NCBI GenBank assembly: GCA_001784175.1
Contig: MFPR01000005.1
Coordinates: 1-32,192 of the forward strand
Reading direction: 5' to 3'
Length of the DNA stretch: 32,192 bases
Origin: Candidatus Lindowbacteria bacterium RIFCSPLOWO2_12_FULL_62_27
GTDB lineage: Bacteria; Lindowbacteria; 2-12-FULL-62-27
The position numbers were made by a program, and so were the translations under genes. The notes beneath the pieces are model-generated. The model was not told the origin of the DNA and did no database searches. It worked only from the letters and a program-made list of their open reading frames with translations. Of this stretch, positions 10,994-27,315 are shown piece by piece; the stretch's first letter is position 1; each line of letters begins with the position of its first letter.

Positions 10994-12313
10994 TCAGAAA
11001 CTGTATCGCATCCTGAAGTAGAGGTTGTCGTTCCCGTCGAGCTGGCCGAACTCGGTATGAGCGCGGCGGCCTGTGAATACGTCGGCGCCGACGACCAGTG
11101 TCCACTCGTCCGACATCTTCCATGAGAGGCACGGCCTGAGATGGGCGTCGCGGTCGGTGGGACTGTAAAAGGCGAACAGGGAGGCCTCGACGGTTTGAAA
11201 CCGGAAGAGCCGGGTCAGCCGCAGGGTCAAGACACGCCGCCGCTCGGCGCGGGGCGGATTGCCGGGCGCGGCGCTTCGTTGAAACGCGCCGAAGTTGCGC
11301 ATCCGCTCGACGTAATATTGAATCCCCACGCGCGCGTCATTCGGAAAATCGCGTTCGTATCCCGCCAGATATTTCATCGCCGAATTCTCGACGAGGCGGT
11401 CCGTGCCGCGGCGGTCGTCGATCGAATCGTACCAGCCGGCCTCAAACCAGCCGATACCGCCGAGCCGCGCCACAGGCCCGCGAATGCTTGCGCCCCATAC
11501 CGCCAGACGCGGATAAAAGAGTTCCCGGCCGCCTGAACTCACAAACCCACGCGGCTGTTTGAAAAACCCGCGGAAGGCGTACAGGGCGCACTCGGCGCTT
11601 CCATACGAGCGCGCGAGGCGCGCCGCCGCTTCCGTGTGGTCCAGGCGCGCAGCAGGCTCGATCAACACGCGCCGCGCGTCGCTCCCCGCGATCCGGCCCA
11701 ACGTGGGATCGAAGAAACTGAGGCGCTCGCCGCGCAGGGGGGCGTCGGGCGCGAAGAACGGAACGAACACAACGTCCAGGGACGCGCCCGGCCCGAACGC
11801 CGAAAATCTGGCGGCGTCGGAAGGCGCTTTGAGATATTCGTCGTCCCGGCCGATGAAGAACGAGACGAAATCTTTCGGAAACAGATCGTTGACGAACAAC
11901 AGGTCCCCCGTTCCCCACGTGAGAATCTGCCGGCCGATCTTGACGTCAAGCCACTCCGCCGGGCTGAACAGAACATGCGCTTCGCGAATCCGCATCTGGA
12001 CGCTCGATGCATTCCGGTCGCCGGCGAGATCGGACTTGGAGAACAGTTCCGCGCGCCATTTGTTTTCCCGGGCGGGCCGCCAGAGGGTTTTCAGTTGAAG
12101 GCGGGATTCGAGGAAGTTGAAGCCGGCGTGCCGGGTCTTTCCCTCGCCGCCGATCTTCGGCCCGAAGGCGGCTTCGGCGAATCCGTGGATTTCGCGGGCG
12201 TCCACGCGCGCCGCGCCCGCCGAGAACGCGGCGATGCAGGCGGCGACGAGAAACGCCCCGTCAGCGAATCCAGGACGCCGGCGGACGGCGGAGACTCCGT
12301 TCCTGAAAAACAT
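10994..12313 (-). CDS. Outer-membrane beta-barrel protein, last gene of cluster B
   Basis: This 439-residue product has an unusually long signal region (about 1-39), with Arg residues then a hydrophobic core GAFLVAACIAAFSAGA. Barrel strands follow, among them FNFLESRLQLKTLWRP, WLDVKIGRQILTWGTGD and TVEASLFAFYSP, and it ends in LYFRMRYSF with the terminal Phe of outer-membrane barrels. The KIGRQ-x2-TWG-x-GD motif is widespread in DUF1302/alginate-export-like barrels, which often accompany MMPL exporters and LolA-like carriers, exactly the two genes upstream here. It probably forms the outer-membrane end of that export route. The ATG at 12313 overlaps the carrier gene by 53 nt and lacks a clear ribosome binding site; ATG at 12355 would add 14 residues. 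Confidence 0.75.
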   Translation of the reverse strand: MFFRNGVSAVRRRPGFADGAFLVAACIAAFSAGAARVDAREIHGFAEAAFGPKIGGEGKTRHAGFNFLESRLQLKTLWRPARENKWRAELFSKSDLAGDRNASSVQMRIREAHVLFSPAEWLDVKIGRQILTWGTGDLLFVNDLFPKDFVSFFIGRDDEYLKAPSDAARFSAFGPGASLDVVFVPFFAPDAPLRGERLSFFDPTLGRIAGSDARRVLIEPAARLDHTEAAARLARSYGSAECALYAFRGFFKQPRGFVSSGGRELFYPRLAVWGASIRGPVARLGGIGWFEAGWYDSIDDRRGTDRLVENSAMKYLAGYERDFPNDARVGIQYYVERMRNFGAFQRSAAPGNPPRAERRRVLTLRLTRLFRFQTVEASLFAFYSPTDRDAHLRPCLSWKMSDEWTLVVGADVFTGRRAHTEFGQLDGNDNLYFRMRYSF

Positions 12314-13067
12314 TGGCTGAAAGGCCGACGTCGTAGGACACGTCGCCGACGGCAATTTCGGTAAACCGCCCGTTGTCGAGGTCGGTCATCATTGCCTTCG
12401 TGATCGTCGGCGTGCCGCCGATCGTCCGGATTTCACGCGTCTCATAGATCTTGTACAGCTTCCCCTGCGGACTGTAGTGCTCGACTTTGAGCGGCAAAAA
12501 CGTCGCGGTGTCCATCCAGAACAGGCGATACGCGAACTCGGACTCGCCCGGCCGTTTCGCCGCGCTCTTCACGACAAACGCCGCGCGATCACCGATCGCT
12601 TCTTCCCGCAAAAACGCGTGGTCGTCCTCATCAATGTCGCGGCCGGAGATGTCCTCGTAGGAGAAATCGGATCCGGCGAAGCTCGTGCGCCGGTCGGCGG
12701 CGGAGATTCGTTTGACGAGGTCGAGCGCGGGCATGTAGAGCCAGCGGTCGTCGTCCCTGCCGACATGCTTGAACACCAGAAAGCTCATCCCCTGCACGTC
12801 CGGGGGCGCGAGGAAGTGGAGATAGTACGATTGTTCGCCTCCGTCTTTCAGATCGCGCCGGAGCATGACGAGCCGCCGTTTGCGTTCCTGTCCCTGCCGG
12901 TTCACGATCCGCATTGTGACCGCCATTTTCGCGTCATCGCGCGGATAGTAATACGCCAGGATCATCCGCTCCGCAATCGCGTGTCCATCCATCGGCGGCC
13001 CGGCGCTGACGCCCCCCTCGACAATGAGAACGGCCGCGAGCGCCGCAAGAATACGTTTCAGTTTCAT
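12261..13067 (-). CDS. LolA-like outer-membrane lipoprotein-sorting protein
   Basis: This 268-residue periplasmic protein has a signal peptide (about 1-23, KLKRILAALAAVLIVEGGVSAG). The body matches the LolA_like family found beside MMPL exporters: MTMRIVNRQGQERKRRLVM, YYLHFLAPPDVQGMSFLVF, WLYMPALDLVKRISAADR and DFSYEDISG. The family has an open beta-barrel that shields lipid or lipid-modified cargo across the periplasm. It starts with an ATGA overlap with the stop of the exporter gene and has GGAG upstream, so the exporter, carrier and downstream outer-membrane barrel form a coupled three-part unit. The cargo is unknown: hopanoids, lipids or lipoproteins are possible. Confidence 0.85.
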   Translation of the reverse strand: MKLKRILAALAAVLIVEGGVSAGPPMDGHAIAERMILAYYYPRDDAKMAVTMRIVNRQGQERKRRLVMLRRDLKDGGEQSYYLHFLAPPDVQGMSFLVFKHVGRDDDRWLYMPALDLVKRISAADRRTSFAGSDFSYEDISGRDIDEDDHAFLREEAIGDRAAFVVKSAAKRPGESEFAYRLFWMDTATFLPLKVEHYSPQGKLYKIYETREIRTIGGTPTITKAMMTDLDNGRFTEIAVGDVSYDVGLSANVFQERSLRRPPASWIR

Positions 13068-15442
13068 GTGTGTTCTCCTCCGATAAGTTGCCGGCGCAGG
13101 AGCCGGATCAGGGCGGGAAGATAAACGAGGCTCATGGCCGACGACAACAGCATGATGGCGGCCATCAATACGCCGACGGTGATGTAGGGCGTGAGGTCGG
13201 CGAAGATCATGACGAGGAATCCGGATGCGAAGAGAATCGCGTTGCAGATAACCCCGCGGCCCGGCCGGGACACGGTCCAGATCAGCGTCTCGTCGATCCC
13301 CGAGGCCGTGTCGATCCCGGCGAGGCGTTGGCGGAACCGGCCGACGAAGTGAATGGCGAAATCGACGGCCATGCCAAGCGTCAGCGTTGAGAGCACCGCC
13401 ACCGGCATGTCGAAATCTTTTCCGATCCACCCAACGACGCCGTAGATCACGGTAATCGTCGCCAGGAGAGGCAGAAAACAGACGCATCCCCACAGCGCCG
13501 AACGCATCTGGATCACCAGCAGAATCCAGACCATTCCCAGTCCCCATAAAAAACTTTCGAGCATGCCCCGGAGGACTTCGTGATTCCACACCGTATTGAA
13601 GTAGGCGATGCCGGCCGGGCGGATTTGCGCCCCGTCCGGAAGCGGATGCGCCGCGAGATGGGCGTTGGCCCGCCCAATCACGCCGTTCATGGCGTCGGCG
13701 TCCCATGTTTTGAGTTGAATCATGATGTTGGCGTTTTTCAGCGGGAAATCGACGACGTTGTCGATGTCGCGCGGTTTGGCGGAGGAACTCAAAAGAAGGA
13801 GAATCTGCCCGACCGCGCCGGCGGATTCCGGGATGCGGTCGAATGAGGGATCGTCGTCGTGGAGGACGCGATTGGCGCGCCGGATGTAGTCCGCGATCGA
13901 AACGGTTTTGCCGACGAGCGGATCGCGTTCGAGTTCCCGCTGAAGACGCTCGATCGCCGTCAGCATCGCCGGATCGCCGATGGCGCCCTCCGACCGGGCC
14001 TGCACGACGATGTAGGCGGTCGACGTTCCGCCGAGATGCTCGTTGAGAATCCGGTCGGCGCTTCGAACGGCGCTTTCCGGTTTGAACCAGTGCACCATGT
14101 TGTTGTTGACCCGGATGCGCGCAAGGCCCGCCCCCGCGACAAGGATCACCGCCAGGCCCACCAGCAGAACGGGCTTGGTCCGGCGCACGCAAAATCCGCC
14201 GAGCCGCGTAAGCCATGCCGCGCCCGCACTCGCGGGATCGTTCTGCCGCCGCGCCAGCCGGTCGACGCATGCGGCCGGTACCAGCATCAGCATCGCCGGC
14301 ACAAGCGTGTAGCTCATGAGGAGAACGACGAGCGTTCCGAATCCGACGACAAGCCCGAAAATTTTCACGGGCACGATGTCTCCCGCCGCCAGCGCGGCGA
14401 ATCCCACCGCGGTCGTGATGTCCGAGTAGAAAACCGGCGGGCCGACGACGGCCATCGTATCGAGCGCCGCCTGCCGCCTGTCGACGCACCCTCCGTCGGG
14501 CACTCGACATCCGTGTCTCGCGCAAACCCCGACTCCGGGTACGGCGACATCCCTGTCGCCGCCCGCGCGAAAGGCGAACTCGTTCAGGATGTGGACGGCG
14601 TCCGTGGCGATGGCCATGAGAAAAACGGGACTCATGGAACTCATGATGTGCACCGGAAATCCAAGTCCGATGAGTCCGCCCATGCTCCAGACGATGCTGA
14701 TCATCGCCACGGCCATGTTGGCCGCGATCACCCAAACATTCCGAAACATCAGCCAGAGCGCCAAGCAGATCACGGCGCCGGCGAAGGGCGAGAAAAACGC
14801 CATCTGGCGGAACATCTCCGCGCCGAATGTGTCGCGGGCGATGGGATCGCCGGCAAGATGGAAGACGTCGTCTCCCGAATTCTGCGGGAAAATCGCGCGG
14901 ATTTTGTCCGCGATTTCCTTGCCGTTGACACCCGGCTCAAGCGGAACGGAGATGACGGTCGCCGTCGCCCGATCCGAGATGAGGCGATTGACGAAAAGCG
15001 GGTTGTCGAGGAGCTGGCGACGCAGGGCCGCCAGTTCCACGTCCGACGCGGGAATGACCGCCAGAGGCGGCTTGACGATCAGGTCACCGTTGGCGCTCGT
15101 TACGTTGTCCGTGGCGGAAAGGCTTGCCACGTCCCGCGCGACGACGCCGGGGATCGACTGAATCGCGCGCGTGAGTTCCGCGACGCGGCCGAGGGTTTGC
15201 GGATTGAAGACGCCATGCGGATTGACGATTCCGACGACGATCACGTCCGCATGAAGGGCGAAATCCCGCTCGACCTGATCGTTGTATCGCCGCACTGGCG
15301 ATGTTTCCGGCAGCATGTGTTTGGGATCCGTGTCGACGGTGACTTTGGGAAACTGCATTCCAAAGAGGACGCTTACCATGGCGACCGCGGCGAGCACGGC
15401 GCGCGGATGGTCGACGCTAAGTTGCGTGAGACGCTTGAGCAT
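13064..15442 (-). CDS. MMPL/RND-superfamily exporter carrying an in-frame palindromic insertion
   Basis: This 792-residue inner-membrane protein has the duplicated RND layout of the HAE3 (HpnN-like) group. It has an N-terminal helix (about 14-30), a large periplasmic domain, a first block of five or so helices (about 215-410, with ATDAVHILNEFAF), a second periplasmic domain (about 430-600), and a second helix block near the C-terminus with LGMAVDFAIHFVGRFRQ. Such proteins use proton motive force to move lipids or hydrophobic compounds. A stretch at residues 293-323 (AGGDRDVAVP...GCRVPDGGCVDRR) interrupts the loop after helix 4, normally a short cytosolic linker. It is encoded by a palindromic element also seen in the FeS protein gene at 21932-23233. 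The frame stays open. It overlaps the carrier gene by 4 nt. Confidence 0.88.
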   Translation of the reverse strand: MLKRLTQLSVDHPRAVLAAVAMVSVLFGMQFPKVTVDTDPKHMLPETSPVRRYNDQVERDFALHADVIVVGIVNPHGVFNPQTLGRVAELTRAIQSIPGVVARDVASLSATDNVTSANGDLIVKPPLAVIPASDVELAALRRQLLDNPLFVNRLISDRATATVISVPLEPGVNGKEIADKIRAIFPQNSGDDVFHLAGDPIARDTFGAEMFRQMAFFSPFAGAVICLALWLMFRNVWVIAANMAVAMISIVWSMGGLIGLGFPVHIMSSMSPVFLMAIATDAVHILNEFAFRAGGDRDVAVPGVGVCARHGCRVPDGGCVDRRQAALDTMAVVGPPVFYSDITTAVGFAALAAGDIVPVKIFGLVVGFGTLVVLLMSYTLVPAMLMLVPAACVDRLARRQNDPASAGAAWLTRLGGFCVRRTKPVLLVGLAVILVAGAGLARIRVNNNMVHWFKPESAVRSADRILNEHLGGTSTAYIVVQARSEGAIGDPAMLTAIERLQRELERDPLVGKTVSIADYIRRANRVLHDDDPSFDRIPESAGAVGQILLLLSSSAKPRDIDNVVDFPLKNANIMIQLKTWDADAMNGVIGRANAHLAAHPLPDGAQIRPAGIAYFNTVWNHEVLRGMLESFLWGLGMVWILLVIQMRSALWGCVCFLPLLATITVIYGVVGWIGKDFDMPVAVLSTLTLGMAVDFAIHFVGRFRQRLAGIDTASGIDETLIWTVSRPGRGVICNAILFASGFLVMIFADLTPYITVGVLMAAIMLLSSAMSLVYLPALIRLLRRQLIGGEHT
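14474..14566 (-). repeat. Palindromic element inserted in frame in the MMPL exporter
   Basis: About 93 nt code for the atypical loop at residues 293-323. The element contains GGCGACA-TCCC-TGTCGCC (14543-14560 on the plus strand), a perfect 7-bp stem with a 4-nt loop, and weaker GACA-TCCG-TGTC (14506-14517) and CCCG-N4-CGGG stems. The first stem aligns closely with 23009-23027 in the FeS protein gene. Translated on the minus strand both give AVP...GCR. Confidence 0.65.
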
Positions 15443-15462: not shown

Positions 15463-16305
15463 TCAGTCTTCAGTCGCGCCGAAGGCTAATTTGTCCGCGA
15501 TGTCGAGGATGGCGCGGGCGGCGGGATCGCCGGGCTCGGCGAGAACGAGGGGAACGCCCTTCTCCTGCGCGCGGAGAACCGCTGGGGATCGCGGCACCCG
15601 GCCGAGCAGAGGCACATGAAATCGCTCGCAGGGTTGTGAGCCGTTTCCGGCCGTCTCTTCGATGGACCGGCCGCAGTGCGGACAGACCGCGCCTGACATG
15701 TTTTCGATCCAGCCGAGAACAGGGGCGCGGAGCTGTTTGAACATCATCAGAGCTTTGATCGTTACGGACTCGGACATGGGGTCCGGGGTGGAGACGAGAA
15801 CAACGCCGGTCAGGGGCAGAAGGCCGCAGATGGAAAGATGCAAATCGCCGGTACCGGGAGGCAGATCGACGAGGAGGAGGTCGAGTTCGCCCCACATCAC
15901 ATCCCGGGCGAACTTGTTCACCGTGTCAATCACCAGCGGCGCGCGCCAGACCACCGGTTCGTCCGGATCGGCGATGGATCCCATCGAAAAAAACCGCACG
16001 TCATGCCGAACGAGGGGGCGGGGACGGCCATCCTCGATTTCCGGGACGTCATCCGAGCCGAGCAGGATCGGGGTACAGGGTCCGTGAAAATCGAGGTCCA
16101 TGAGGCCCACGCGAATTGTCCCTGTCGCCGACCGACTGGCCAATGCCGCCGCAAGATTGACGGCGACGGTCGATTTGCCGACGCCGCCCTTGCCGCCCGC
16201 CACCGCCACGATTTTCCGGACGCCCGGAATCGGCGGGGCGGCCGGCGGTGCGGCCGGTGCGGGCATTTTGATCGGGCAGGCAAACGGTTTCGATGGAGAT
16301 TGCAT
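15463..16305 (-). CDS. mrp: Mrp/NBP35-family FeS-cluster carrier ATPase
   Basis: The product is 280 residues. A deviant Walker A, GGKGGVGKST, lies at 37-46 with VDLPPGTGD (146-154) as Walker B/switch region, and the pair CPHC (208-211) binds a bridging [4Fe-4S] cluster between two subunits. These are the features of ApbC/Ind1/NBP35 scaffold proteins, which deliver FeS clusters to target apoproteins. The setting, one operon with a molybdoenzyme, two FeS proteins and a Rieske protein, suggests a dedicated maturation role. The Pro/Ala-rich N-terminal tail (PAPAAPPAAPPIP) is a linker. The ATG overlaps the preceding stop (TGATG), so longer upstream starts are unlikely. Confidence 0.9.
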   Translation of the reverse strand: MQSPSKPFACPIKMPAPAAPPAAPPIPGVRKIVAVAGGKGGVGKSTVAVNLAAALASRSATGTIRVGLMDLDFHGPCTPILLGSDDVPEIEDGRPRPLVRHDVRFFSMGSIADPDEPVVWRAPLVIDTVNKFARDVMWGELDLLLVDLPPGTGDLHLSICGLLPLTGVVLVSTPDPMSESVTIKALMMFKQLRAPVLGWIENMSGAVCPHCGRSIEETAGNGSQPCERFHVPLLGRVPRSPAVLRAQEKGVPLVLAEPGDPAARAILDIADKLAFGATED

Positions 16306-17261
16306 CAGCAGTTGCAGTCCTCCTCGGCGGAGATGTTGATTTGCGCCGACGATTTCTGGCCGTTTTCGTCCTCGATGCGCAGGATCACGACGTAGAGACC
16401 CTGCGTGAATGTGTGCTCGGCCTGCCGGCCCGCGGCCGTTGTGCCGTCGCCGAAGTCCCACTCGATCTTTTTCATCTTGCCGCTGCCGCCAGATATCAGC
16501 GCCTTGAACTGAACTTTGTAGGGCGCTGTGCCGCGTCTGGCTCGAACGCCCCCAATCCGGGCCTTCAGCGGCCCGCCGATCTTGCCCTCCTCCTCTTTCA
16601 GGAGGCTCCCGCCCAGATCGTCGGAAACTTTCGCGAGCGCCGCGCGCGTTTGGGCCGACATCGGCGTCTCAACCGCCGTGTCTCTTCCGGCTTTCCGGCT
16701 GACGGCAAGCTGTCGGCCGTCGTCGATCCGCAGTCGCTTGTAATTCACGTCGGTCACAACGCGGCCAAGAATCGTCCAGAGCGTGGCGGACCCGCCGGGC
16801 ACGGTCGGATCATAGGTGAGGGCGAATTCGGCGCCCTGACTCAAAAATTTCCACGCGCCGGCGGCGATCTGAAACTCACAGAACAGATGTTCCGGCACCT
16901 GGGCTTTGACGAACACCCGCCCTTTTTCAAGCGTGATCACCGTCCCTTCCATTTTCTTGTCAAGGTCGAACGTCACGCCTTCGAGGGAAATCCTGCCGCC
17001 CGGATAAAGACGAAAGATGCCTCCGTTGGACCACGTGAGGACGGCGGAGGATTTGTCCGCCGTTTCGATCACGTCGCCCCGCTCGATGATCTGCCCCTCT
17101 TTGGCGCTGACGGCTTTGTCGACTCCGTACTTTTTCACGGTGGCCGTCCCGTCCAGGCGCGTCAGGCGCACCACCGAGACGTCCTCAGCCGCCGACCATC
17201 CGGCGGCGGCGATCACCATCGCAATACATGCAAGACCCCGGACAAATCCGGTTCGCATCAT
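16305..17261 (-). CDS. Secreted FecR-domain protein with a C-terminal PKD domain
   Basis: This 318-residue protein has a signal peptide (about 1-25) and a FecR-like beta domain (about 30-190) containing VVRLTRLDGTATV, GDVIETADKSSAVLTWSNGG, FRLYPGGRISLEGV and WKFLSQGAEFALTYD. After a charged helical linker comes a PKD domain (about 225-308), with YKVQFKALISGGSGK, WDFGDGTTA and HTFTQGLYVVILRIEDENG. FecR domains without a membrane helix occur in surface and periplasmic proteins; PKD domains mediate protein or polysaccharide contacts. It ends in CNC. Its position between a beta-barrel and Mrp within cluster B points to a periplasmic structural role. GAGAGGTGATGG supports the start at 17261. Confidence 0.8.
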   Translation of the reverse strand: MMRTGFVRGLACIAMVIAAAGWSAAEDVSVVRLTRLDGTATVKKYGVDKAVSAKEGQIIERGDVIETADKSSAVLTWSNGGIFRLYPGGRISLEGVTFDLDKKMEGTVITLEKGRVFVKAQVPEHLFCEFQIAAGAWKFLSQGAEFALTYDPTVPGGSATLWTILGRVVTDVNYKRLRIDDGRQLAVSRKAGRDTAVETPMSAQTRAALAKVSDDLGGSLLKEEEGKIGGPLKARIGGVRARRGTAPYKVQFKALISGGSGKMKKIEWDFGDGTTAAGRQAEHTFTQGLYVVILRIEDENGQKSSAQINISAEEDCNC

Positions 17262-17280: not shown

Positions 17281-18852
17281 TCAGTACTTCAGCTCCGTTC
17301 CGATCACAATCTCATGGGCGCTTCTTGGATGCGCTCCCGACGGAAGGGCATAGACATCTTTGGGTCTGAAATACCCGAAATTCAGAAATCCTTCAAGCCG
17401 CTCAAGAATCGGAAACGTGGTGTTCAGGTCGAATTCCCAGCCGACCTCGTTTGTCGTGGCCGTTGATGTTGCCTGACCCCCGCTCCAGTCGCCGACCACC
17501 CCGCGGCCGCGGTATACATCCTCGGTGGTCCGGAGCAGCATAAACGACGGCGTGATGACAACCTTCTTCGCCGGCGACGCCTCCATGAATACCTTATAGA
17601 CTGTCAGGTTGGCGAGGTTCGATTCCCAGAGAAAAAATCCCGCCCGGACGTCCTCCGTAAAAATGTTTCCGAATTTTTTGCGGTCCCGGCACGTGAACAG
17701 CGCGTTGAAATCCTTGACGTCCCCGGCCGCCGGATCGGTGACTTTGTTGCCGCTGCCGCGGGCGTATTCGAGGCCGGCAACCAGACGCGCAAGGGCCGAC
17801 GATTTCAGCGGGGCGCGCGCGGAAACGAAAATGGCGTTCGCGTCGGCATTCCGGCCTCCGGCGTACGACCCGCCGAGGCGGATACCCTCGAACTCCCAGT
17901 CCACCCCGCTTGTTGTTCCCTTTCCAGCGATGCCGATCCAGAGCGGCTCGAATTCGCCGTCGCGCCTCACCGTGCCGGCGTCGAAATCCTTGTCGAGATT
18001 GAGATCGGCGTCCCCGGTGTCGCCGTTGTCCAGAACCTTGACGGCATACAGCTCCAGACGCGACATCCCCGACGGCGGGCGGACCGTGGCGCTGAAAAAA
18101 GCGCCGTTGAGGCGGTTGTCCGCCTGAAACACCTGCTGGCGGTCGCCGGCGGGCGGACCCGTCTTGCGGAAATCGGAGTAGGTATTGTACCCGCCGGAGA
18201 GGGCCGCATACCCCAGAGAAAAATTGCCGGAGCCGAACGCCGCCGATTTCATCGGGACGGAGACTTTCACCATATCCGTCGGGCCTTCCATCACGATGTC
18301 GTTTCCGAACGTCAAGTTGGTCCGGCCGATCTGCACGGCGAAGGGTCCCGTATATTGCACATATAAATCCCTGAACAGCGCATATCGCACGGTGAGGAAT
18401 TCTCCCCAGCGCTCAAGCGTTCCTTCGCCGTCCTCCTTCCAGTCGAACGTGAAATTGCCCTTGTCCATCAGGGCGACGACCTGCCAGGACTGCCAGAGGG
18501 ATTCGATCCTGAGTTGCCAGCGGTAGTCGACAAAGGCGCGGTTGTCGAATTTCCAGCGCATGCCGGCGTGGTCGAAGTTGAAGTTGTCGCGGACGTTGTA
18601 TCGGATTTTGTATTTGCCCGACAGGTCGAACTTGAATTTGCTCTCTTTCTCCTCCTCAGCCTTGGCCTCGCGGGCCTCCATCTTCCGAATTTTTGTTTCC
18701 AGCTCCGCGATGCGCCGTCGCGCCTCCTCGTCCCGCCCGGTCTGCGGCGCCGACGCCACCTCCGGCTCGGTCCATTCCTCCTGCGCAGACGCGGGATGAT
18801 TGAATAGCGCCGCCATGAGAAACCACGCCGCAAAAACGCCCGCCCATTTCAT
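17281..18852 (-). CDS. Outer-membrane beta-barrel with N-terminal coiled coil (cluster B)
   Basis: The 523-residue product has a signal peptide (about 1-24), a charged coiled coil (about 42-72, EEARRRIAELETKIRKMEAR) and a long barrel with strands such as SGKYKIRYNVRDNFNF, RWQLRIESLWQSWQVVAL, LYVQYTGPFAVQIGRTNL and EGFLNFGYFRPKDVY, ending in GTELKY. The terminal Tyr is an accepted variant of the barrel C-terminal signal. The layout resembles alginate-export-type and multihaem-associated porins. It starts 12 nt after the cytochrome bc genes, so it may let substrate or product of the molybdoenzyme pass, or form part of an electron conduit. No multihaem partner large enough for a porin-cytochrome conduit is encoded next to it, which favours the transport option. 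Confidence 0.78.
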   Translation of the reverse strand: MKWAGVFAAWFLMAALFNHPASAQEEWTEPEVASAPQTGRDEEARRRIAELETKIRKMEAREAKAEEEKESKFKFDLSGKYKIRYNVRDNFNFDHAGMRWKFDNRAFVDYRWQLRIESLWQSWQVVALMDKGNFTFDWKEDGEGTLERWGEFLTVRYALFRDLYVQYTGPFAVQIGRTNLTFGNDIVMEGPTDMVKVSVPMKSAAFGSGNFSLGYAALSGGYNTYSDFRKTGPPAGDRQQVFQADNRLNGAFFSATVRPPSGMSRLELYAVKVLDNGDTGDADLNLDKDFDAGTVRRDGEFEPLWIGIAGKGTTSGVDWEFEGIRLGGSYAGGRNADANAIFVSARAPLKSSALARLVAGLEYARGSGNKVTDPAAGDVKDFNALFTCRDRKKFGNIFTEDVRAGFFLWESNLANLTVYKVFMEASPAKKVVITPSFMLLRTTEDVYRGRGVVGDWSGGQATSTATTNEVGWEFDLNTTFPILERLEGFLNFGYFRPKDVYALPSGAHPRSAHEIVIGTELKY

Positions 18853-20298: not shown

Positions 20299-20811
20299 CT
20301 ACACCCCCGCCCTTTTCTGAGCCACCGGCATGACATGCAGGCGGCCGTCCACCAGACGCGTCGGATACCGGTCCAATGGCCTCGGCGGCGGGCCTTCCAC
20401 CACCGCGCCGGTTTTGTCAAAGACGCCCATGTGACACGGGCACAAAAATTTCTGCCGCTGGGCGTCCCAGCGGAACGGACAGCCGAGGTGCGGGCAGTGC
20501 GGGTCGAATGCCTCGAAGGCCGATTCGGCCGTCCGGACAACCCAAACCGTCGCCCGGGATTGCGCGACGATCCACCCGTCCCGTTTTCGTTTCGAGATTT
20601 CGACTCTCTGGGGAACGCCGATTTTGAAGCCGTCCACGTCTCCGACGTCCGACCAGTCCGCCTCCCGTTTTCGCAAGAGGGGCGCAGAAAAAACCGTTCC
20701 ACCCACGCCCGCGAAAACGATGGCGATGAATCCGCCCATATAGTTGATGGCGCGGACAAACCAAGACCGGCGGGTCAATTCCGCCTCTTTGGGACAGGGT
20801 TGATCGCTCAT
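20299..20811 (-). CDS. Rieske [2Fe-2S] protein of the cytochrome bc complex
   Basis: The 170-residue protein has an N-terminal Tat-like stretch and anchor helix (TRRSWFVRAINYMGGFIAIV, about 13-32) and a periplasmic Rieske domain. Its cluster motifs are C106-x-H108-x-G-C111 (CPHLGC) and C124-x-C126-H127 (CPCHMG): C106, H108, C124 and H127 bind the cluster, and C111 and C126 can form the stabilising disulfide. It accepts electrons from quinol at the cytochrome b Qo site and passes them to the cytochrome c domain. The ATG at 20811 overlaps the cytochrome stop by 4 nt. A 22-residue longer start lies within the upstream gene and is less likely. Confidence 0.93.
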   Translation of the reverse strand: MSDQPCPKEAELTRRSWFVRAINYMGGFIAIVFAGVGGTVFSAPLLRKREADWSDVGDVDGFKIGVPQRVEISKRKRDGWIVAQSRATVWVVRTAESAFEAFDPHCPHLGCPFRWDAQRQKFLCPCHMGVFDKTGAVVEGPPPRPLDRYPTRLVDGRLHVMPVAQKRAGV

Positions 20812-21248
20812 GGGTTGCCTCCCTTGGCGAGGGGCGATCCGTAGAGCACTTTGATCTTGCTGTCCGGGCCGTGGCATTTCACGCAGACGAGTTCCTGAAG
20901 GTTCGGTTTGAAGAGATGGGGATTTCTCAGCATGACAGCCTCCGTGAATATCGGTTCGCCCTCCGACCGCCGGGGCCGAACGATGATCCTGGACATGGTC
21001 TTTTTAAACGAGTTGGGGTGCAGAACCGTTCCCTCGTTGAAGTAGCCTTCCCTCTGATCCCCATCGCCGCCGGCCATGCGAAAACCGGCGTGGCAGGTGA
21101 TGCACGAATGGTTTTCGTGATTGTAGGCCGGATTGGTCGACCGGATGTGTCGCTCGTGGAGCGGCGCCGGCGCCTTTTCTCCGCAGGCCGAGCAGAACAC
21201 CGCCACGGCGAATACGGCGCAAATCCCGGCAGGTTTTGAGAAACGCAT
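20808..21248 (-). CDS. Secreted dihaem cytochrome c, possible lipoprotein
   Basis: This 146-residue protein has an N-terminal hydrophobic segment, AGICAVFAVAVFCSACGEK. A Cys at residue 22 might be lipidated, though the box is not canonical. CITCH (49-53) and CVKCH (122-126) are the two haem sites, separated by an unusually long stretch with NEGTVLHPNSFKKTMSRIIV. I do not recognise a named family. It lies between the TorD and Rieske genes, so it plausibly carries electrons between the bc complex and the molybdoenzyme on the periplasmic side. GGGAGGAA precedes the ATG at 21248, and the stop overlaps the Rieske start. Confidence 0.82.
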   Translation of the reverse strand: MRFSKPAGICAVFAVAVFCSACGEKAPAPLHERHIRSTNPAYNHENHSCITCHAGFRMAGGDGDQREGYFNEGTVLHPNSFKKTMSRIIVRPRRSEGEPIFTEAVMLRNPHLFKPNLQELVCVKCHGPDSKIKVLYGSPLAKGGNP

Positions 21249-21261: not shown

Positions 21262-21939
21262 CTATCCGGCGGCGGCGCGCGCGCCGGCCAGCCGAGTCTG
21301 TTCTTCGGACATGAAATCCTCCGTCATCAGCGCCACTCCCGCATAAAAACGGGACTGGCTTTCTTTCCGGATGTATCGGCAAAGATCGAATATCCATCGG
21401 AGCAGATGTTCCTTCAGAAAATCGTTTTGAATGACCCGGCATTTCTCCACCTCGGCCGCAAGACCCCGATCCATGGCGTCAACTTCTATACCGCACAGAA
21501 ATTGCATGAACTCCATCTCCACCCCGACGTGATCCGGGTGCTCGTCGCAATTTTTTCCGAGAACCGCGCCGGCGTAGTCGTAGAAGCGTTTGACGCCGAT
21601 CGTCACCTTGCCGCCCAGACGCATCTGGGGGTCGGTGAAAACCGATTCGTGGGGGCGTATGGGCGGGCCTTTGCGGCCGAGGGGAAGAACAAAGAGGCGT
21701 GTGTATTCCGCCGTGAGATCGCGCTCCAGGCCGGGGTCAGCGGCCGATTCGTCCAGAAACGCCGCCAGTTCCGCCCGCGCGGGGGAATCGTCCGAAAGCG
21801 ACAATTCGTCCAGCAAGCGCCGGGACCGGATCAGTTCAACGATACCGGCCGGAGGCGGCTGGGAATAGACGGACGAGAGAAACACATACAGATCGGCCCG
21901 GCGGCGGGATTCGAGAGATTCCGTGGACAACTCAGCCAT
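21262..21939 (-). CDS. TorD-family molybdoenzyme chaperone of cluster B
   Basis: The 225-residue cytosolic helical protein shows the family motifs: RRADLYVFLSSVYSQPPP at the N-terminus, LTAEYTRLFVLPLGRKGPPI then RPHESVFTD (about 80-107), and the EHPDHVGVEMEFMQFL signature (about 138-153). Chaperones of this family bind a Tat signal and guide molybdenum cofactor insertion. It differs strongly from the cluster A TorD, which fits one chaperone per enzyme; the client should be the 978-residue molybdoenzyme at 23874-26810. The ATG overlaps the preceding FeS protein stop by 8 nt. Confidence 0.88.
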   Translation of the reverse strand: MAELSTESLESRRRADLYVFLSSVYSQPPPAGIVELIRSRRLLDELSLSDDSPARAELAAFLDESAADPGLERDLTAEYTRLFVLPLGRKGPPIRPHESVFTDPQMRLGGKVTIGVKRFYDYAGAVLGKNCDEHPDHVGVEMEFMQFLCGIEVDAMDRGLAAEVEKCRVIQNDFLKEHLLRWIFDLCRYIRKESQSRFYAGVALMTEDFMSEEQTRLAGARAAAG

Positions 21940-23233
21940 TGCCGGACAACACCCATCGGCGCGCCATGGCGCGGCGCTTGCGTTCCTGATTCATGCAGAG
22001 CGGACAGTAAGGATCATCCGCCTGTTTGGAAACAAACGACGCGCGGCATGCACGGCAAATCTGACGGCGGCTTTCAATGAGTTTGCGCTCTCCCGCAAAC
22101 AGTATCGCGGGGTCGGCCGTCCGCGAAATCGTTATCGCCTTCGGCAGACACGCCGCGGCACAAACGCCGCAGGCGGTGCATGATTTCGGATCAAAATACA
22201 GCTCGAAGACATTACCCGATTCTACGCGCCGGATCGCATCGGTCGGACACAAACTCTCGCAGACGTTGCATCCCATGCAGGATTGCGACACGGAAATCCC
22301 GGCGAAATTTGCCGGATTTGCCGCGGGATCGGCCGTGACCGTATTCAGAGAGATCGTGTCGGCGGGCGTTTGGGTGGTCGCCCCGTCACTGTCTCGGAGC
22401 GATTCGATAAGTTCCAGAAGATGTTGCCGGCGGGGTGACGGGATTTTCCTCAATATTCTTTCACGGAACTTCTCCCCCACGCTCTTTTCTTCCCTTGTCG
22501 CATCCGGCTCGGGCAGAATCGCGGCGGCCTGGCCGACCGCCGATTTCAAGAACGTCCGGCGGGACGACAGGGGCGCCGGCAGGCCGGCCGGCTCAGGACA
22601 AAACGGCGCGGCGACGACGGACAGGCGGTCCGGCTCAATTCCGGCAAACTTCATGACCCGCCGCGCAATCTCCACCGTTCTTTCCATGCCGGCGCCGGCG
22701 CTTCGCATCGGACAGGTTTCACACGACGGCTTCAGAATCTCCACGCGTGCCGCTCCGTGACGGAATGATTCGAGAATGACGGGAACTGTGAGGCGGCCCA
22801 GACACACGAGCACGGCATCCGCCCCCGCGGAGTGACTGCAGGAGATGTTGAGAATCCGCGGAGCCGGCGGACGGGTATCCAGCAGGCGGCGGAATTTGAG
22901 GCCCCATTGCCTGTCGGTGGCGCAAACGGCGTCGAACCCTCCGTTCAAATCGGGAGACGCCGCCCCCGACTTGAGCGAACGGCATCCCTGCCGTTCGGGG
23001 TCGGGGACGGCTGACGTCCATGTCGCCGATCCCCTCATTTCAATCGCGCCGTTCGGGCAGGCCGGCACGCAAGCTCCGCAGGCGATACAAGCGTCGCTGA
23101 CGCGCGCGCCCTCCGCGCCGATCTGGACGGCGTCGACCGGGCAGGCCCGCGCGCACAGATCGCAGTCGGATTTGGAACAGAGGTACCGGCTGCAAAGCCC
23201 CGATTCGACGGCGACCGGGATTTGCGTCAGCAT
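21932..23233 (-). CDS. Multi-[4Fe-4S] protein with internal RRTFLK segment and C-terminal Zn-ribbon
   Basis: This 433-residue protein has no recognised name. Residues 14-60 hold a two-cluster ferredoxin (C19-x4-C24-x2-C27-x3-CP and CIACGACVPACP). Residues 68-99 derive from a palindromic insertion. About 130-215 is a Rossmann-like segment with CLGRLTVPVILESF, SCETCPM and FAGIEPDRLSVV, distantly reminiscent of hydrogenase delta (MvhD-like) domains. Then SRRTFLKSAVGQAAAIL looks like an internal Tat-like segment, followed by a second two-cluster ferredoxin (CMGCNVCESLCP and CTACGVCAAAC) and a CRAC...CPLC zinc ribbon. It probably relays electrons to or from the molybdoenzyme complex. Whether it is cytosolic or exported is unclear. 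It starts 4 nt after the FeS subunit. Confidence 0.78.
   Translation of the reverse strand: MLTQIPVAVESGLCSRYLCSKSDCDLCARACPVDAVQIGAEGARVSDACIACGACVPACPNGAIEMRGSATWTSAVPDPERQGCRSLKSGAASPDLNGGFDAVCATDRQWGLKFRRLLDTRPPAPRILNISCSHSAGADAVLVCLGRLTVPVILESFRHGAARVEILKPSCETCPMRSAGAGMERTVEIARRVMKFAGIEPDRLSVVAAPFCPEPAGLPAPLSSRRTFLKSAVGQAAAILPEPDATREEKSVGEKFRERILRKIPSPRRQHLLELIESLRDSDGATTQTPADTISLNTVTADPAANPANFAGISVSQSCMGCNVCESLCPTDAIRRVESGNVFELYFDPKSCTACGVCAAACLPKAITISRTADPAILFAGERKLIESRRQICRACRASFVSKQADDPYCPLCMNQERKRRAMARRWVLSGNG
22934..23032 (-). repeat. Palindromic element inserted in frame in the multi-FeS protein
   Basis: The element codes for residues 68-99. On the plus strand CGAACGGCA-TCCC-TGCCGTTCG (22976-22997) is a perfect 9-bp stem with the same 4-nt TCCC loop as the MMPL copy. 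It is nested within CCCCGAC (22964-22970) and GTCGGGG (23000-23006). A neighbouring stem at 23009-23027, GGC(T)GACG-TCCA-TGTCGCC, aligns with the MMPL stem at 14543-14560. Confidence 0.7.
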
Positions 23234-23237
23234 TTCA

Positions 23238-23858
23238 TCACATCGAATACATCGTGCTGGGCTTTGTGCCGCTCTCGATCGAGAGCTTCACTTCCTTCGC
23301 CCGCTTCTGCCGAATCAGCGCGGTGAGGTCGTTGACCTCGCCGAAAAACCGCGTGCGGGCAATGCAGGCCGTCACGCAGGCCGGCAGAAGCCCCTTATCA
23401 ACCCGGTGGACGCAGAGCGTGCATTTTTCCATCGTCTGCGTGTCGGCGTTGTACTGCGGCGCGCCGTAGGGACAGGCCCAGGCGCAGTACCGGCATCCGA
23501 TACATTTGTCGCCGTTGATGAGGACAATGCCGTCCTCCTCGCGTTTGGTGATCGCTCCGACCGGGCAGGCGGCCACGCACGCGGGCTTGCCGCAGTGCAT
23601 GCAGGGCATCGGCACGAAATAGACACGCATGTCCTTCGCGGGCTTCGAAGGGTCGGTGAATTCTCCCTCTTCCACGGTGATCACGCGGTTGTAATCGACG
23701 CCGACCTGCGTGTTGTTTTCAGCCTTGCAGGCCATCGAGCAGGAGTTGCACCCGACGCAGTATTCGAGATCGATCCACAGGGCGAACTGTTTCCTGCCTC
23801 GCTTCTTAAAACTGGCGTCCAGAACTTCCTGCGAAATAAACGCGCCGCGCTCAGCCAT
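23238..23858 (-). CDS. FeS electron-transfer subunit of the cluster B molybdoenzyme (DmsB/TtrB-like)
   Basis: The 206-residue protein carries four [4Fe-4S] cluster motifs: CVGCNSCSMAC (34-44), CMHCGKPACVAACP, CIGCRYCAWACP and CTLCVHRVDKGLLPACVTAC. It has the same order as the cluster A FeS subunit, but there is no Tat signal (the N-terminus is MAERGAFISQEVLD). Like DmsB it is presumably carried out by the catalytic subunit, bound before Tat export. It takes electrons between the molybdoenzyme encoded 15 nt upstream and a membrane or periplasmic partner. No NrfD-type anchor is in cluster B, so that partner may be the dihaem cytochrome or the bc complex. Confidence 0.9.
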   Translation of the reverse strand: MAERGAFISQEVLDASFKKRGRKQFALWIDLEYCVGCNSCSMACKAENNTQVGVDYNRVITVEEGEFTDPSKPAKDMRVYFVPMPCMHCGKPACVAACPVGAITKREEDGIVLINGDKCIGCRYCAWACPYGAPQYNADTQTMEKCTLCVHRVDKGLLPACVTACIARTRFFGEVNDLTALIRQKRAKEVKLSIESGTKPSTMYSM

Positions 23859-23873: not shown

Positions 23874-26810
23874 TCAAAGTCTTTCGACGCGCAGGGGCGT
23901 GCCGTAACTCTGCGTGCCCCCGGCGACGGGATCCATCAGGATCCGGTCCTTCAGAACCGGATCGGCCATGTAGAGGGGGTTGATGTGGAACCCCGCGCCG
24001 ATGCGGTCGTCCTGATACTGCGGCTTGCCGTTCACATACCACATGCGCGCGCCGGCGCCCCAGCGGCCGTAAGACTGCGAGACGGAGAATACGCCGGGCC
24101 GGACGCGGCTGGTGACGCGGACCTGAAATTTGTACCAGCCGTCGCCGAGCGAGTTGGCGTACTCCTTCACGGGGATGCTGCTGGGCGATTTCACCCTGAC
24201 CCAGTCGCCCGTGACGACGCCGAGTTTGACGGCCTCGGCCGGATTGATCTCGGCGAAATTCTGCGGCTGAATGGACATGAGCCACAGGTTCTGGGCGGTA
24301 CGCGACTGCGTGTGCCATGCGTCCTTGTGCGTATGCAGCGCGAAGGGATACTCGGCCCAGAGTTTCGGGTCGAGCGGCTGTTCCGTGCAGTCGAAAATTC
24401 CGCGATAGGTCGGCAGGCCGTCGAAGAACGATCCGGTCATGCAGTTCTTGGTCGTCGCGACTTTTTGCTGATAGGCAAACAGCGCCCGGACCGGCCGGCC
24501 GCCCGGGAACCGGCAGTACTCGCCGTCGTATTCCTTGGTGGGATTTTCGAACTTCCCGCCCATTTTGACGAAGTCGCTGTTCGGATCGAGTCCGTCCTTG
24601 AAGTCCTCATGCTTGTAGTACTCGTTCCAGTAGTCCCAGGAGTTCATGAGGTCGATGCCGTCTCCGCCGCCGTTCTTGCCGAATCCGGGCAGACCGCACC
24701 GGATGCCGATCTCGATGAGCACATCATCGGCCATCCGCGCGTCCGGATGGACGCCCCGATACTCGTGCGTCTTCGGATCCAGCTCGCCGACGACGGGCTG
24801 GCGCAGTCCCCAGACCTGGGTGTTGACCGGCGGATAGGTTTTGAATCCGCCAAACCGCTCGAGGTACTCGGTGTCGGGCAGGATGTAGTCGGCGAGGGAC
24901 GAGGTTTCGCCCATGTAGGCGTCGATGCTGAAAAGCAGTGGGACGAGGTCGGTGTTCTTCAAGTTCTCGATGACGGGCGCGTTGTAGGGCATGGTGTAGG
25001 CCGGGTCGTTGTAGTAGTTGAGAATCGCCTTGATCTTGTACGGATACCCGTGCTTGAGGTTGGAGAGAAAATTCGGTGTGACGGTGCGCCGCGCCAGCGG
25101 ATACCAAGGCCGCGTCGGAACCGGCTTCTTGCCTTCATACTTCTTGGCGCAGTCGACCGGAACGCCTTCGGGCTTGCGAAGCGTCCCGCCGACCTTGCCC
25201 TTGTAGGCGGCGTGGCCGGGCGAAAATCCGCCGCGCCGGTCGATGTTATCGACGAGCATGTTGATGATGCATAGCGCCTGTCCATTCCACCAGCCGTTGG
25301 TCTGCTGGACAGGCCCGCGGAACATTTCGATGACGGGCGTTTTGGCCGACGTAAACTCCCTTGAGAGGCGCGCGATCGTTCCCTTGGGAATGTCGCAGAG
25401 CCTGTCGCACTCCTCAAGCGTTTTCTCCCGCGCGCGCTCTTTGAGCATCCGGAACACCGTCTTGCACGGAATGCCCTTGATCGTGACCGACGCGTCGAGA
25501 TCCGCCGGCCCTTCGGCTTCGTGAAACGCCGTGGGACTCCCTCCGGCCATGACGACATAATCGGCCTGAACCGGGAGGCCCGCTTCGGCCGCCGTCAAAT
25601 ACGTCTTCGGCTCCGTCTGCTTGACGAGGTACGTCATGTCGGTCCAGTTGCGCCGGCCGGCGGCCTTGGCCGATTTTTCGTTCGGCAGGCGCAGGTATTC
25701 CCGGTTGAATTTTTCGTTGTCGATGATCCAGCGGATCATGCCGACCAAAAAGAACGCGTCGGCCGCGGGTTTGATGGGAATCCATTCGCCCTTGCCGTTA
25801 TGAGTCGCCTTGGCCGCGCCCGACGAAAGCCACGGATCGACGACGACGTGTTTGAACTCCTTGGCGTATGGCCCCAGCCGTTTGGCCCATTTCTGGAGTT
25901 TGCGGGTGCGAAGCTGCATGGGATAATCGGCGGCGGTGATGTTGGAGCCGATGGAGATGAGGTACGAGGTGAACGGGAGATCGGCGTAGGCGCCGATTTC
26001 ATACGGGGGAAGATTCAGAACGTCTTCGATGACGTTGTAGAACGTGCCGGCGCATCTGGCGCAATGGTTCAGCATGTGCGGCACGCCGCAGACTTCCTTG
26101 ACAAAACGCGGCGTCAGGGGCGACTGCTCGTTTCGGCCGTGCATCCAGACGAACTGATTGCGTTTGGGGCCCCAGCCGGCCGGCGGCGCCTCGTCCATGT
26201 AGGCCGAATCCTCCGGGCCGAGCGGCGAGTTGTCGTTGAGGATTTTGTTCAATCCGTCGACGTGGCGTTTCTCCTCGCCGGGAACGTCCTTGAACAGGCG
26301 GCCCCCGTTCAGGATCTCCTCCATGGCCTCTTCCCACGAGATCTTTTTCCACTGGCCCGACCCGCGCGGTCCGACGCGTTTTAAGGGATGCGTGAGGCGG
26401 GCGGGATTGTAGAGCGCAAAGACGCCGGCGTTGCCTTTCGGGCAGAGCGACGCGACGTCCTTGCCGGCCGGGCCGCCGTCGAGGTCGGATTCGGCCGCGA
26501 GGTCGCCTTTGGCGGAATAGTCATAACAGTTCGGATGAAAGGGATTGCCGTCGAGCTTGATAAGCTCGCCGCCTTTGATTTTGGCCTGAAGGCCGCATCC
26601 GCCGTGGCACATGAGACAGACGCTCCGCACGATCCGGACGTCCTCGCTGATCGGATCGGGTTTGGTGCCGCGCGATCCGAGCTGGTCGCGCCATTCGGCC
26701 GCGCTCGCCGGTTTGATCCGGCCAAGCACGCCGGCCGCCGCCGTCAGAGCCGCGCTCACCTTCACGAACGACCGCCGCGTGATAGAATTTTGTGTCAGGG
26801 TTGAAATCAT
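23874..26810 (-). CDS. Large Tat-exported molybdopterin oxidoreductase (cluster B)
   Basis: The 978-residue catalytic subunit has a Tat signal (TRRSFVKVSAALTAAAGVLG, about 11-30), then a complete FeS motif, C65-x2-C68-x3-C72 and C123 (VCLMCHGGCGL, LCPKGNAG). A 30-residue insertion lies before the fourth Cys. The body is that of DMSO-reductase-family enzymes. C253 in LNHCARCAGTFYNV aligns with the Mo-ligand Cys of the cluster A enzyme. Length and layout resemble tetrathionate reductase TtrA and arsenate reductase-like enzymes, but substrate cannot be decided. WHTQSRTAQNLWL near the C-terminus marks the cofactor-binding domain. The ATG at 26810 has GGAGGAGG upstream; the longer frame to 26900 overlaps the regulator. 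It heads the 14-gene cluster. Confidence 0.92.
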   Translation of the reverse strand: MISTLTQNSITRRSFVKVSAALTAAAGVLGRIKPASAAEWRDQLGSRGTKPDPISEDVRIVRSVCLMCHGGCGLQAKIKGGELIKLDGNPFHPNCYDYSAKGDLAAESDLDGGPAGKDVASLCPKGNAGVFALYNPARLTHPLKRVGPRGSGQWKKISWEEAMEEILNGGRLFKDVPGEEKRHVDGLNKILNDNSPLGPEDSAYMDEAPPAGWGPKRNQFVWMHGRNEQSPLTPRFVKEVCGVPHMLNHCARCAGTFYNVIEDVLNLPPYEIGAYADLPFTSYLISIGSNITAADYPMQLRTRKLQKWAKRLGPYAKEFKHVVVDPWLSSGAAKATHNGKGEWIPIKPAADAFFLVGMIRWIIDNEKFNREYLRLPNEKSAKAAGRRNWTDMTYLVKQTEPKTYLTAAEAGLPVQADYVVMAGGSPTAFHEAEGPADLDASVTIKGIPCKTVFRMLKERAREKTLEECDRLCDIPKGTIARLSREFTSAKTPVIEMFRGPVQQTNGWWNGQALCIINMLVDNIDRRGGFSPGHAAYKGKVGGTLRKPEGVPVDCAKKYEGKKPVPTRPWYPLARRTVTPNFLSNLKHGYPYKIKAILNYYNDPAYTMPYNAPVIENLKNTDLVPLLFSIDAYMGETSSLADYILPDTEYLERFGGFKTYPPVNTQVWGLRQPVVGELDPKTHEYRGVHPDARMADDVLIEIGIRCGLPGFGKNGGGDGIDLMNSWDYWNEYYKHEDFKDGLDPNSDFVKMGGKFENPTKEYDGEYCRFPGGRPVRALFAYQQKVATTKNCMTGSFFDGLPTYRGIFDCTEQPLDPKLWAEYPFALHTHKDAWHTQSRTAQNLWLMSIQPQNFAEINPAEAVKLGVVTGDWVRVKSPSSIPVKEYANSLGDGWYKFQVRVTSRVRPGVFSVSQSYGRWGAGARMWYVNGKPQYQDDRIGAGFHINPLYMADPVLKDRILMDPVAGGTQSYGTPLRVERL

Positions 26811-26835: not shown

Positions 26836-26854
26836 TTGGAACCTGGTGTTCCAA
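26836..26854 (-). promoter_or_regulatory. 7-bp dyad in the arsR-molybdoenzyme gap
   Basis: TTGGAAC-N5-GTTCCAA lies in the 67-nt gap between the ArsR stop and the molybdoenzyme start, just upstream of its GGAGGAGG ribosome binding site. It could be an operator for a second regulator or an mRNA hairpin. It does not match the arsR dyad at 27267-27292. Confidence 0.45.
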
Positions 26855-26877
26855 TCCGCAATCTATTATCCAAAAAC

Positions 26878-27192
26878 TCACGATCTCGTTCCACCCACAA
26901 TTTGCGCCTGCTTTCGGATTCGCTCAGAGAGGATGTCCCGAATCAGGTCGAACGCCTCCAGCATGCGCGGCGCGGCCAGGCGGTAGTAAATGCGGTTCGC
27001 ATCCTTTCGGGAGAGCAGCACGCCGCGCCGTTTCATCATGAGCAGATGGGGCGATACGGTTCCAAACCCCACGCCAAGTTTTCTGGCGATCTCTTTCACG
27101 CACTCCTCCCCGTCCCGCAGCGCTCCCAGAATGCGCAGGCGCACCGGATGCGAAAAGATTTTGCACATGTCCGCATGAAGTTCGCACAGCAT
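26878..27192 (-). CDS. ArsR-family regulator at the head of cluster B
   Basis: This 104-residue winged-helix protein has KIFSHPVRLRILGALRDG, then EIARKLGVGFGTVSPHLLMM as recognition helix region (about 35-53) and wing GVLLSRKDANRIYYRL. C31 in EECVKEIA occupies the alpha-3 sensing position, and C3 and C10 lie in the N-terminal tail, so thiol, metalloid or sulfur-species sensing is possible. It is distinct from the ArsR at 10521. It is followed after 67 nt by the molybdoenzyme gene and is preceded by an 8-bp inverted repeat. ATG at 27192 has no clear ribosome binding site; GTG within a longer frame, with a purine-rich tract upstream, is an alternative. Confidence 0.85.
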   Translation of the reverse strand: MLCELHADMCKIFSHPVRLRILGALRDGEECVKEIARKLGVGFGTVSPHLLMMKRRGVLLSRKDANRIYYRLAAPRMLEAFDLIRDILSERIRKQAQIVGGTRS

Positions 27193-27266
27193 TTCGTCGG
27201 ACGATCGAGAAACCCCACGAACGGCTTTCCTCCTGCCCACCTCACGCCCCCCTTCGCTTGCGAGTA

Positions 27267-27292
27267 TTCTACAGAACTCAAGAACTGTAGAA
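27267..27292 (-). promoter_or_regulatory. Probable operator of the cluster B ArsR
   Basis: TTCTACAG-N10-CTGTAGAA is a perfect 8-bp inverted repeat about 75 nt upstream of the ArsR ATG. It covers the predicted start site of the sigma-54-like promoter at 27299-27315. Confidence 0.6.
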
Positions 27293-27298
27293 CGACAT

Positions 27299-27315
27299 TG
27301 CAAAGGGTATTCCGA
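27299..27315 (-). promoter_or_regulatory. Sigma-54-like promoter upstream of cluster B
   Basis: The minus strand reads TCGGAATACCCTTTGCA, with GG-N10-GC spacing, 107 nt above the ArsR start. It matches the site upstream of cluster A in 16 of 17 positions. A start site about 12 nt downstream would fall inside the ArsR dyad. Confidence 0.45.

Follow-up and report, generated by a model that had tools for sequence, protein, structure and literature searches.

The selenate reductase SerABC is fed by a bc1 complex and follows a quinol-bc-cytochrome c-molybdoenzyme logic. The ext cluster of Geobacter is already known to carry a dedicated Rieske/cytochrome b pair together with a porin-like protein and cytochromes (PMC5877670), and an unnamed lineage sister to the TtrA/SrdA group has been mentioned by Wells and co-workers (Wells 2023, PMC10100899). 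Here, a locus of Candidatus Lindowbacteria was analysed in a window (the whole stretch of DNA, 32,192 nucleotides) that corresponds to the entire contig. After an ArsR gene, it holds 14 minus-strand genes (26810-10994), whose identities were backed by Pfam and NCBIfam models. With slightly better than even confidence, the block is read as a composite operon, in which a core reductase is combined with a captured, dedicated b6-type quinol complex and an appended trio of MMPL, LolA_like and barrel genes.

Gene order and packing

The genes of the operon and its regulator, all on the minus strand, are as follows.

26878..27192, minus strand: ArsR-family regulator (PF01022, E 6.7e-10; start probably 27192 or 27240)
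23874..26810, minus strand: molybdoenzyme (PF00384, PF01568, PF04879)
23238..23858, minus strand: four-cluster FeS electron-transfer subunit of the DmsB/TtrB type (TIGR02951, 182 bits)
21932..23233, minus strand: Fer4 - FlpD/MvhD domain - Fer4 - zinc-ribbon-like protein (PF02662, PF00037)
21262..21939, minus strand: TorD/NarJ-type chaperone (PF02613, E 9e-25)
20808..21248, minus strand: dihaem c-type cytochrome, cytochrome F (two CXXCH; cluster c5, in 26 loci)
20299..20811, minus strand: Rieske protein, start 20811 (PF00355, E 2e-11)
19623..20297, minus strand: b6-type cytochrome b, 224 aa (PF00033, E 1e-50; ExtP model, 227 bits)
18865..19626, minus strand: subunit IV-cytochrome c fusion (PF00032, PF00034)
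17281..18852, minus strand: barrel1, outer-membrane pore-like (AF2 model, AlgE match)
16305..17261, minus strand: FecR-like and PKD exported protein (PF18911, weak PF04773; cluster c3, in 27 loci)
15463..16305, minus strand: Mrp/NBP35 (NUBPL) P-loop FeS carrier (PF10609, E 1e-71)
13064..15442, minus strand: MMPL (RND) transporter of the trio (PF03176, E 4e-24; orthologues about 50%)
12261..13067, minus strand: LolA_like periplasmic protein of the trio (PF17131, E 3e-55)
10994..12313, minus strand: barrel2, outer-membrane partner of the trio (weak DUF1302; orthologues 34-47%)

Distances within the block ranged from about -53 to 20 nt. Taking the most likely starts, the individual values were 15 nt (molybdoenzyme-FeS), 4 nt (FeS-FlpD), -8 nt (FlpD-TorD), 13 nt (TorD-cytochrome F), -4 nt (cytochrome F-Rieske), 1 nt (Rieske-cytochrome b), -4 nt (cytochrome b-subunit IV/c), 12 nt (subunit IV/c-barrel1), 19 nt (barrel1-FecR), -1 nt (FecR-Mrp, TGATG), 20 nt (Mrp-MMPL), -4 nt (MMPL-LolA) and about -53 nt (LolA-barrel2, the start of barrel2 being uncertain), and both ATGA and TGATG junctions were present. 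The preliminary description, in which all gaps after ArsR were overlaps or at most 20 nt, holds within the block, but the ArsR and molybdoenzyme genes are separated by 67 nt. Its b6-type cytochrome b (petB/ExtP-like, 224 aa) and its dihaem cytochrome (a cytochrome F with two CXXCH motifs) were confirmed, and its second FeS protein actually combines two ferredoxin parts with an FlpD/MvhD domain.

The packing of the block is far from chance. Terminator-like sites inside it were at background (19 versus 20.0 ± 4.4 in shuffles), as were promoter-like sites, and a single transcript for the whole block is plausible from the sequence. A sigma-70-like promoter site just past barrel2 (10981-10953) could be the start of the next unit (ArsR2, MtrA-like).

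Both flanks carry further genes. Just past the operon (9361-10925), a second ArsR gene is followed by an MtrA-like (corrinoid methyltransferase subunit) plus PterinBD-DUF4346 protein, an unusual pair. Upstream, PIN-domain and ribbon-helix-helix genes (28644-29463), likely a toxin-antitoxin pair, lie between the operon and an NrfD module; the latter (29342-32100, at the contig edge) consists of NrfD (30877-32100) and then a membrane-anchored six-haem cytochrome, and forms a further quinol module.

Molybdoenzyme family and core cassette

The molybdoenzyme (978 aa) has a Tat-like signal (ITRRSFVK), an N-terminal CxxCxxxC cluster motif and three molybdopterin domains, and belongs to the DMSO reductase (MopB) superfamily, with three Pfam families over cut-off; Cys250 is the predicted Mo ligand. 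The best curated model was TtrA (NF011567), at 351.8 bits against a cut-off of 1750, followed at a distance by the type II DMSO reductase model of the SerA/PcrA type (TIGR03479, 92 bits against 985) and ArrA (NF041714, 71 bits against 1600), and membership of all three was rejected. A scan of genome contigs gave about 32 loci at 64-71% identity and then a sharp drop to <=37%. The antimonate reductase AnrA is known from Geobacter sp. SVR and Desulfuribacillus; no Geobacter locus was among the close matches. In a tree of 62 sequences, obtained by a quick search with some long branches and with AnrA, SrdA, ArxA and Pyrobaculum sequences left out, the window enzyme and its close relatives formed one clade (100% SH-aLRT), far from the ArrA-family rows, which themselves score under the NF041714 cut-off of 1600 (1016-1334). 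This clade was placed outside the 34-row TtrA-like radiation (100, quick tree), which includes TtrA and the ars-island enzyme of Citrobacter arsenatis. By sequence comparison, the enzyme represents a monophyletic family, uncharacterised but widespread, that stands apart from ArrA, has the TtrA-like radiation as its sister group, and is possibly the unnamed lineage of Wells 2023 (PMC10100899). The phylogeny, which the preliminary description had proposed as a way to narrow the substrate, excluded the TtrA radiation and the ArrA clade. The earliest two branches of the clade were the window and an Armatimonadetes locus (L013). Since the enzyme was absent from both genomes of the window's own family, its horizontal gain is likely.

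Other molybdoenzyme loci were also noted. A second cluster on the same strand of the window (2439-8228) encodes a Porin_O_P-like barrel, an FeS protein, a PhsA/ArrA-like molybdoenzyme, TorD and a tetrahaem c554-type cytochrome. In a more distant TtrA-like locus (L089, 2-13730), LolA, barrel2 and an ArsR 48% like that of the window lie on the strand of the molybdoenzyme, about 7.5 kb upstream of it.

A core of molybdoenzyme-FeS-FlpD/ferredoxin-TorD-haem c-barrel1-FecR/PKD was found in about 30 genomes of several phyla, and this gene set was kept in nearly every complete neighbourhood. Identities across the core loci were 64-71% for the molybdoenzyme and 65-74% for the FeS subunit, and the core cytochrome carries 2-3 haems in relatives. 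A literature search found no published description of the cassette. The FlpD-ferredoxin family, in which 22 of the 38 invariant columns are Cys, gave Foldseek matches to MvhD and to an FeS subunit of a formate hydrogenlyase, and would serve in electron transfer or maturation. At about residues 225-240 of this protein (window 21932-23233), an internal twin-arginine-like SRRxF motif precedes an Ala-rich stretch, which looks like a Tat-type ferredoxin fused behind the FlpD domain. A Mrp gene also lies alongside a haloarchaeal TtrA-like enzyme. The Armatimonadetes cassette (L013, 9512-16055) is without barrel1, and its bc genes run into genes for 8-haem and 29-haem cytochromes. A single conserved system of 14 genes, as first supposed, was rejected: the trio and the bc genes vary independently of the core, and among 198 Nitrospirota genomes the trio barrel was found in 50, the molybdoenzyme in 4 and both in 2.

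In eight relatives (L022, L024, L026, L028, L029, L033, L038 and L048), a TGA codon lies exactly at the position of window Cys250 (NHCARCAGT to NH*SRCAGT). At the position of FeS-subunit Cys89, a putative [4Fe-4S] cluster ligand, TGA was found in eight relatives as well (L022, L026, L027, L028, L029, L037, L048 and L086; PCMHCGKPAC to PCMH*GKPAC); five relatives have both, and the frames are open otherwise. A SECIS-like hairpin (CUUCUACA-GUGU-UGUAGAGG) starts 20 nt downstream of the enzyme TGA in seven of the eight; it goes with an Asn-to-Ser change that the Cys forms lack, except L086, which looks like a reversion. tRNA-Sec scored over the cut-off in the TGA-type genomes (marginal in G087, a contig-edge fragment in G089) and below it in the window's genome. 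The in-frame TGAs probably encode selenocysteine, and these variants would mark residues important for catalysis and electron transfer. No Sec form of this enzyme appears in the available text of two recent selenoprotein reviews, which is not proof of novelty.

Quinol modules, probable outer-membrane pore and trio

A cytochrome bc/b6f complex is encoded in the operon (PF00355, PF00033, PF00032 and PF00034). Apart from the window, only the Armatimonadetes locus has Rieske, cytochrome b and subunit IV-cytochrome c genes with the cassette. A tetrahaem c-FeS-NrfD module precedes the enzyme in 13 loci, and c554 and NapC/NirT genes lie downstream of the cassette in several Betaproteobacteria, where a second molybdoenzyme may be their actual partner. 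The quinol module is exchangeable while the core stays. Because b6-type cytochrome b is encoded three more times in the window's genome, the operon copy is extra and dedicated to the enzyme, and the dedicated quinol-bc-cytochrome-molybdoenzyme chain of the preliminary description is indeed encoded in one operon. The window cytochrome b was 46% identical to the L013 copy, against up to 53% for general or unrelated copies. Given this lack of special kinship with L013, the association with bc genes probably arose on two occasions, or on a single one followed by rapid divergence, and the dedicated bc complex was probably captured locally. Membership of the Geobacter Ext system was rejected (ExtP, 227 bits against a cut-off of 290; no cytochrome with more than two CXXCH in the block). 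As a separate observation, c554, NapC/NirT, MoaA and an enzyme of the type II DMSO reductase family are encoded downstream of several betaproteobacterial cassettes (L016-L036).

The AF2 model of barrel1, of moderate confidence (pLDDT 64, pTM 0.66), has about 18 strands and a periplasmic helix. Its nearest match was AlgE (Z 23.2, rmsd 3.9 over 353 residues), Occ channels also matched, and a PDB sequence search with barrel1 gave no match. As modelled, the fold resembles 18-strand anion/solute pores rather than MtrB-type conduits, and barrel1 would fit better as a selective AlgE/Occ-like pore than as a 26-28-strand electron conduit. Porin-cytochrome (MtrAB) systems combine 26-28 strands with a decahaem partner; here, about 18 strands (in the moderate-confidence model) and only a dihaem partner were observed. 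No MtrB-type fold was among the matches listed, which is not proof of its absence.

The MMPL, LolA_like and barrel genes were identified in this order by PF03176, PF17131 and synteny. A frameshift in MMPL residues 295-320 was considered and rejected, as no better frame was found, and the region was taken as an insertion or divergent stretch. Barrel2 orthologues, which adjoin MMPL/LolA in nearly all cases, were found together with MMPL orthologues in 21 of the 33 cassette genomes. In 13 of these 21, window included, the trio lies <=13 kb from the cassette on the same contig and strand, a rough count, since contig breaks in draft genomes may make some trios look unlinked. Apart from the window, the linked trios, from several phyla, were all co-directional with the cassette (12/12), and one locus (L027) has the contiguous array MMPL-LolA-barrel2-tetrahaem-FeS-NrfD-Moly-...-FecR. 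Shared descent of the linked trios was not seen: the linked copies form no clade, and the window barrel2 grouped with trio copies from enzyme-free genomes (long branch, place unsure). Where the cassette is absent, genes for ArsR, DsrE, DsrE, DsrH, an SQR-like protein and DsrE2 often precede the trio. The window ArsR was closest to trio-upstream Nitrospirota ArsRs (t9; 32-43%, E down to 1e-27). On a fair reading, trio and cassette are two modules in recurrent, probably functional, association. The joining of the trio with the redox unit, as originally proposed, therefore stands as a linkage that recurs (13/21), but not as an obligate coupling; the independence of the block from the redox genes in relatives refutes the latter and leaves recurrent linkage untouched. 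Among the Nitrospirota (L148-L167), ArsR-DsrE-DsrE-DsrH-SQR-like-DsrE2-MMPL-LolA-barrel was itself seen as a recurring operon, apparently a sulfane-sulfur module.

Proposed function and comparison with described systems

In the composite reading, electrons would pass from quinol through cytochrome b/Rieske and the fused and free c haems to the FeS subunit and the Mo site, where an oxyanion entering through barrel1 would be reduced. Mrp and TorD would serve cofactor loading, and the trio would be a separate envelope/export module appended under the same ArsR, probably handling a toxic product or related sulfur/metalloid species. The observed gene content, packing, conserved core, exchangeable quinol module, independent trio and recurrent linkage are the ground for this reading, to which an electron direction, a substrate, roles for the pore and the trio, and a single transcript are added as proposals. 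The reductase direction rests on the enzyme family and the module types: each quinol module found with the cassette belongs to a type that typically draws its electrons from quinol, and the main ground for the direction is that all of them carry quinol electrons to the periplasm. The enzyme is probably a reductase of a dissolved oxyanion.

In relatives, a sensor set of PhnD-family protein, histidine kinase and sigma54 regulator lies beside the cassette; a domain search of the window found no PhnD-type X/S/R oxyanion sensor, and ArsR only. The X protein of the divergent X-S-R cassette in betaproteobacterial loci (in L036, 8660-9508) has AioX as a match (E 1e-48) and retains Cys106; of the pocket (residues from PMC5908839), Tyr, Ser161, His and Asp are visible in the alignment, and Ser163 is Thr. 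A TtrS-type sensor was rejected for these loci, with weak matches only. The Nitrospirota X protein is PtxB-like and without the Cys. The AioX-like sensor points to an arsenic-type oxyanion in the betaproteobacterial loci, and both the surroundings of the trio and the kinship with TtrA point to sulfur; on this mixed evidence, arsenic, antimony or selenium oxyanions are placed somewhat ahead of sulfur compounds.

It is possible, though unlikely, that the enzyme acts on a sulfur compound (tetrathionate, thiosulfate or polysulfide) and that ArsR and the trio are the sulfane-sulfur stress/export module of the same pathway. TtrA as closest characterised model, the Dsr/SQR-like context of the Nitrospirota trios, the grouping of the window ArsR with trio-linked ArsRs, rhodanese, cysteine desulfurase and TauE neighbours in relatives, and the PhsA/ArrA-like second molybdoenzyme (3702-6140) all agree with such a pathway; however, the betaproteobacterial sensor is AioX-like rather than TtrS-like, the enzyme family lies outside the TtrA-like radiation, and the trio and sulfur neighbours are found without the enzyme.

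Two neighbouring transcription units without functional link, the trio being a passenger in an envelope/redox island, are considered unlikely: the Mrp-MMPL gap is 20 nt without terminator or promoter excess, and the linkage, always co-directional, recurs in several phyla, although the trio occurs without the enzyme in most Nitrospirota genomes, the window barrel2 groups with copies from enzyme-free genomes and the sequence offers no proof of a single transcript.

An oxidase, e.g. of arsenite or antimonite, that delivers electrons into a c-type cytochrome or the quinone pool would suit the betaproteobacterial sensor, in which Cys106 and most of the pocket are retained and whose similarity to AioX (the regulator of arsenite oxidase) exceeds that to ArrX. 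Against it, all attached quinol modules are of usually quinol-oxidising types, and Nitrospirota and Desulfobacterota are menaquinone-based hosts, in which arsenite-to-quinone flow is unfavourable. The characterised TtrA-side relatives are also reductases (PMC10100899). On the whole, an oxidase appears improbable.

That the trio serves to transport or mature the redox proteins towards the outer membrane, as first suggested, is very improbable. In its favour, the operon combines a LolA-like fold and an outer-membrane barrel with a cytochrome that may have a lipoprotein signal at its N-terminus. Against it, barrel2 was not detected in 12 of the 33 core-bearing (draft) genomes, the trio is common without the enzyme, LolA_like/MMPL trios are to our knowledge distinct from the Lol lipoprotein pathway, and the partner that the enzyme keeps in the outer membrane is barrel1 rather than the trio.

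To return to the composite reading, the analysis delineates, in subsurface lineages, a molybdoenzyme cassette that is conserved but uncharacterised, and whose exchangeable electron-supply module makes enzyme direction and substrate testable via compact operon expression. It further indicates that a terminal-reductase operon can acquire a dedicated bc complex of its own, and that such operons repeatedly attract the RND/LolA/barrel module. Only tentatively, the cassette may represent a new multi-phylum respiratory family for metalloid oxyanion reduction, with its own pore, interchangeable quinol modules, Sec as Mo and [4Fe-4S] ligand in some hosts, and an export trio recruited for the product.

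Among described systems, TtrABC, SrdA and the archaeal alternative arsenate reductase share with this operon a periplasmic Cys-type molybdoenzyme of about 1000 aa, a TtrB-like FeS subunit and TorD, but the window enzyme belongs to a separate sister family (about 27-37% identity), and in comparison with TtrABC its operon is without TtrC and has extra FlpD, cytochrome, pore and FecR genes. AioX-type three-component regulation, known from ArrAB/ArxAB with XSR, is likewise present in the related betaproteobacterial loci, whereas the window enzyme is not ArrA by model score or tree and its regulator is ArsR only. SerABC has the same electron-flow logic, with a molybdoenzyme of a different family and a bc complex that is not in its operon. 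The window trio has the same three gene families in the same order as known MMPL-LolA_like-barrel trios and differs in being joined to a respiratory operon. The Geobacter ext cluster (selenite/tellurite; extHIJKLMNOPQS) shares the dedicated Rieske protein, ExtP-type cytochrome b, c-type cytochromes and selective-porin-like barrel (PMC5877670), but, unlike the window operon, is without a molybdoenzyme.
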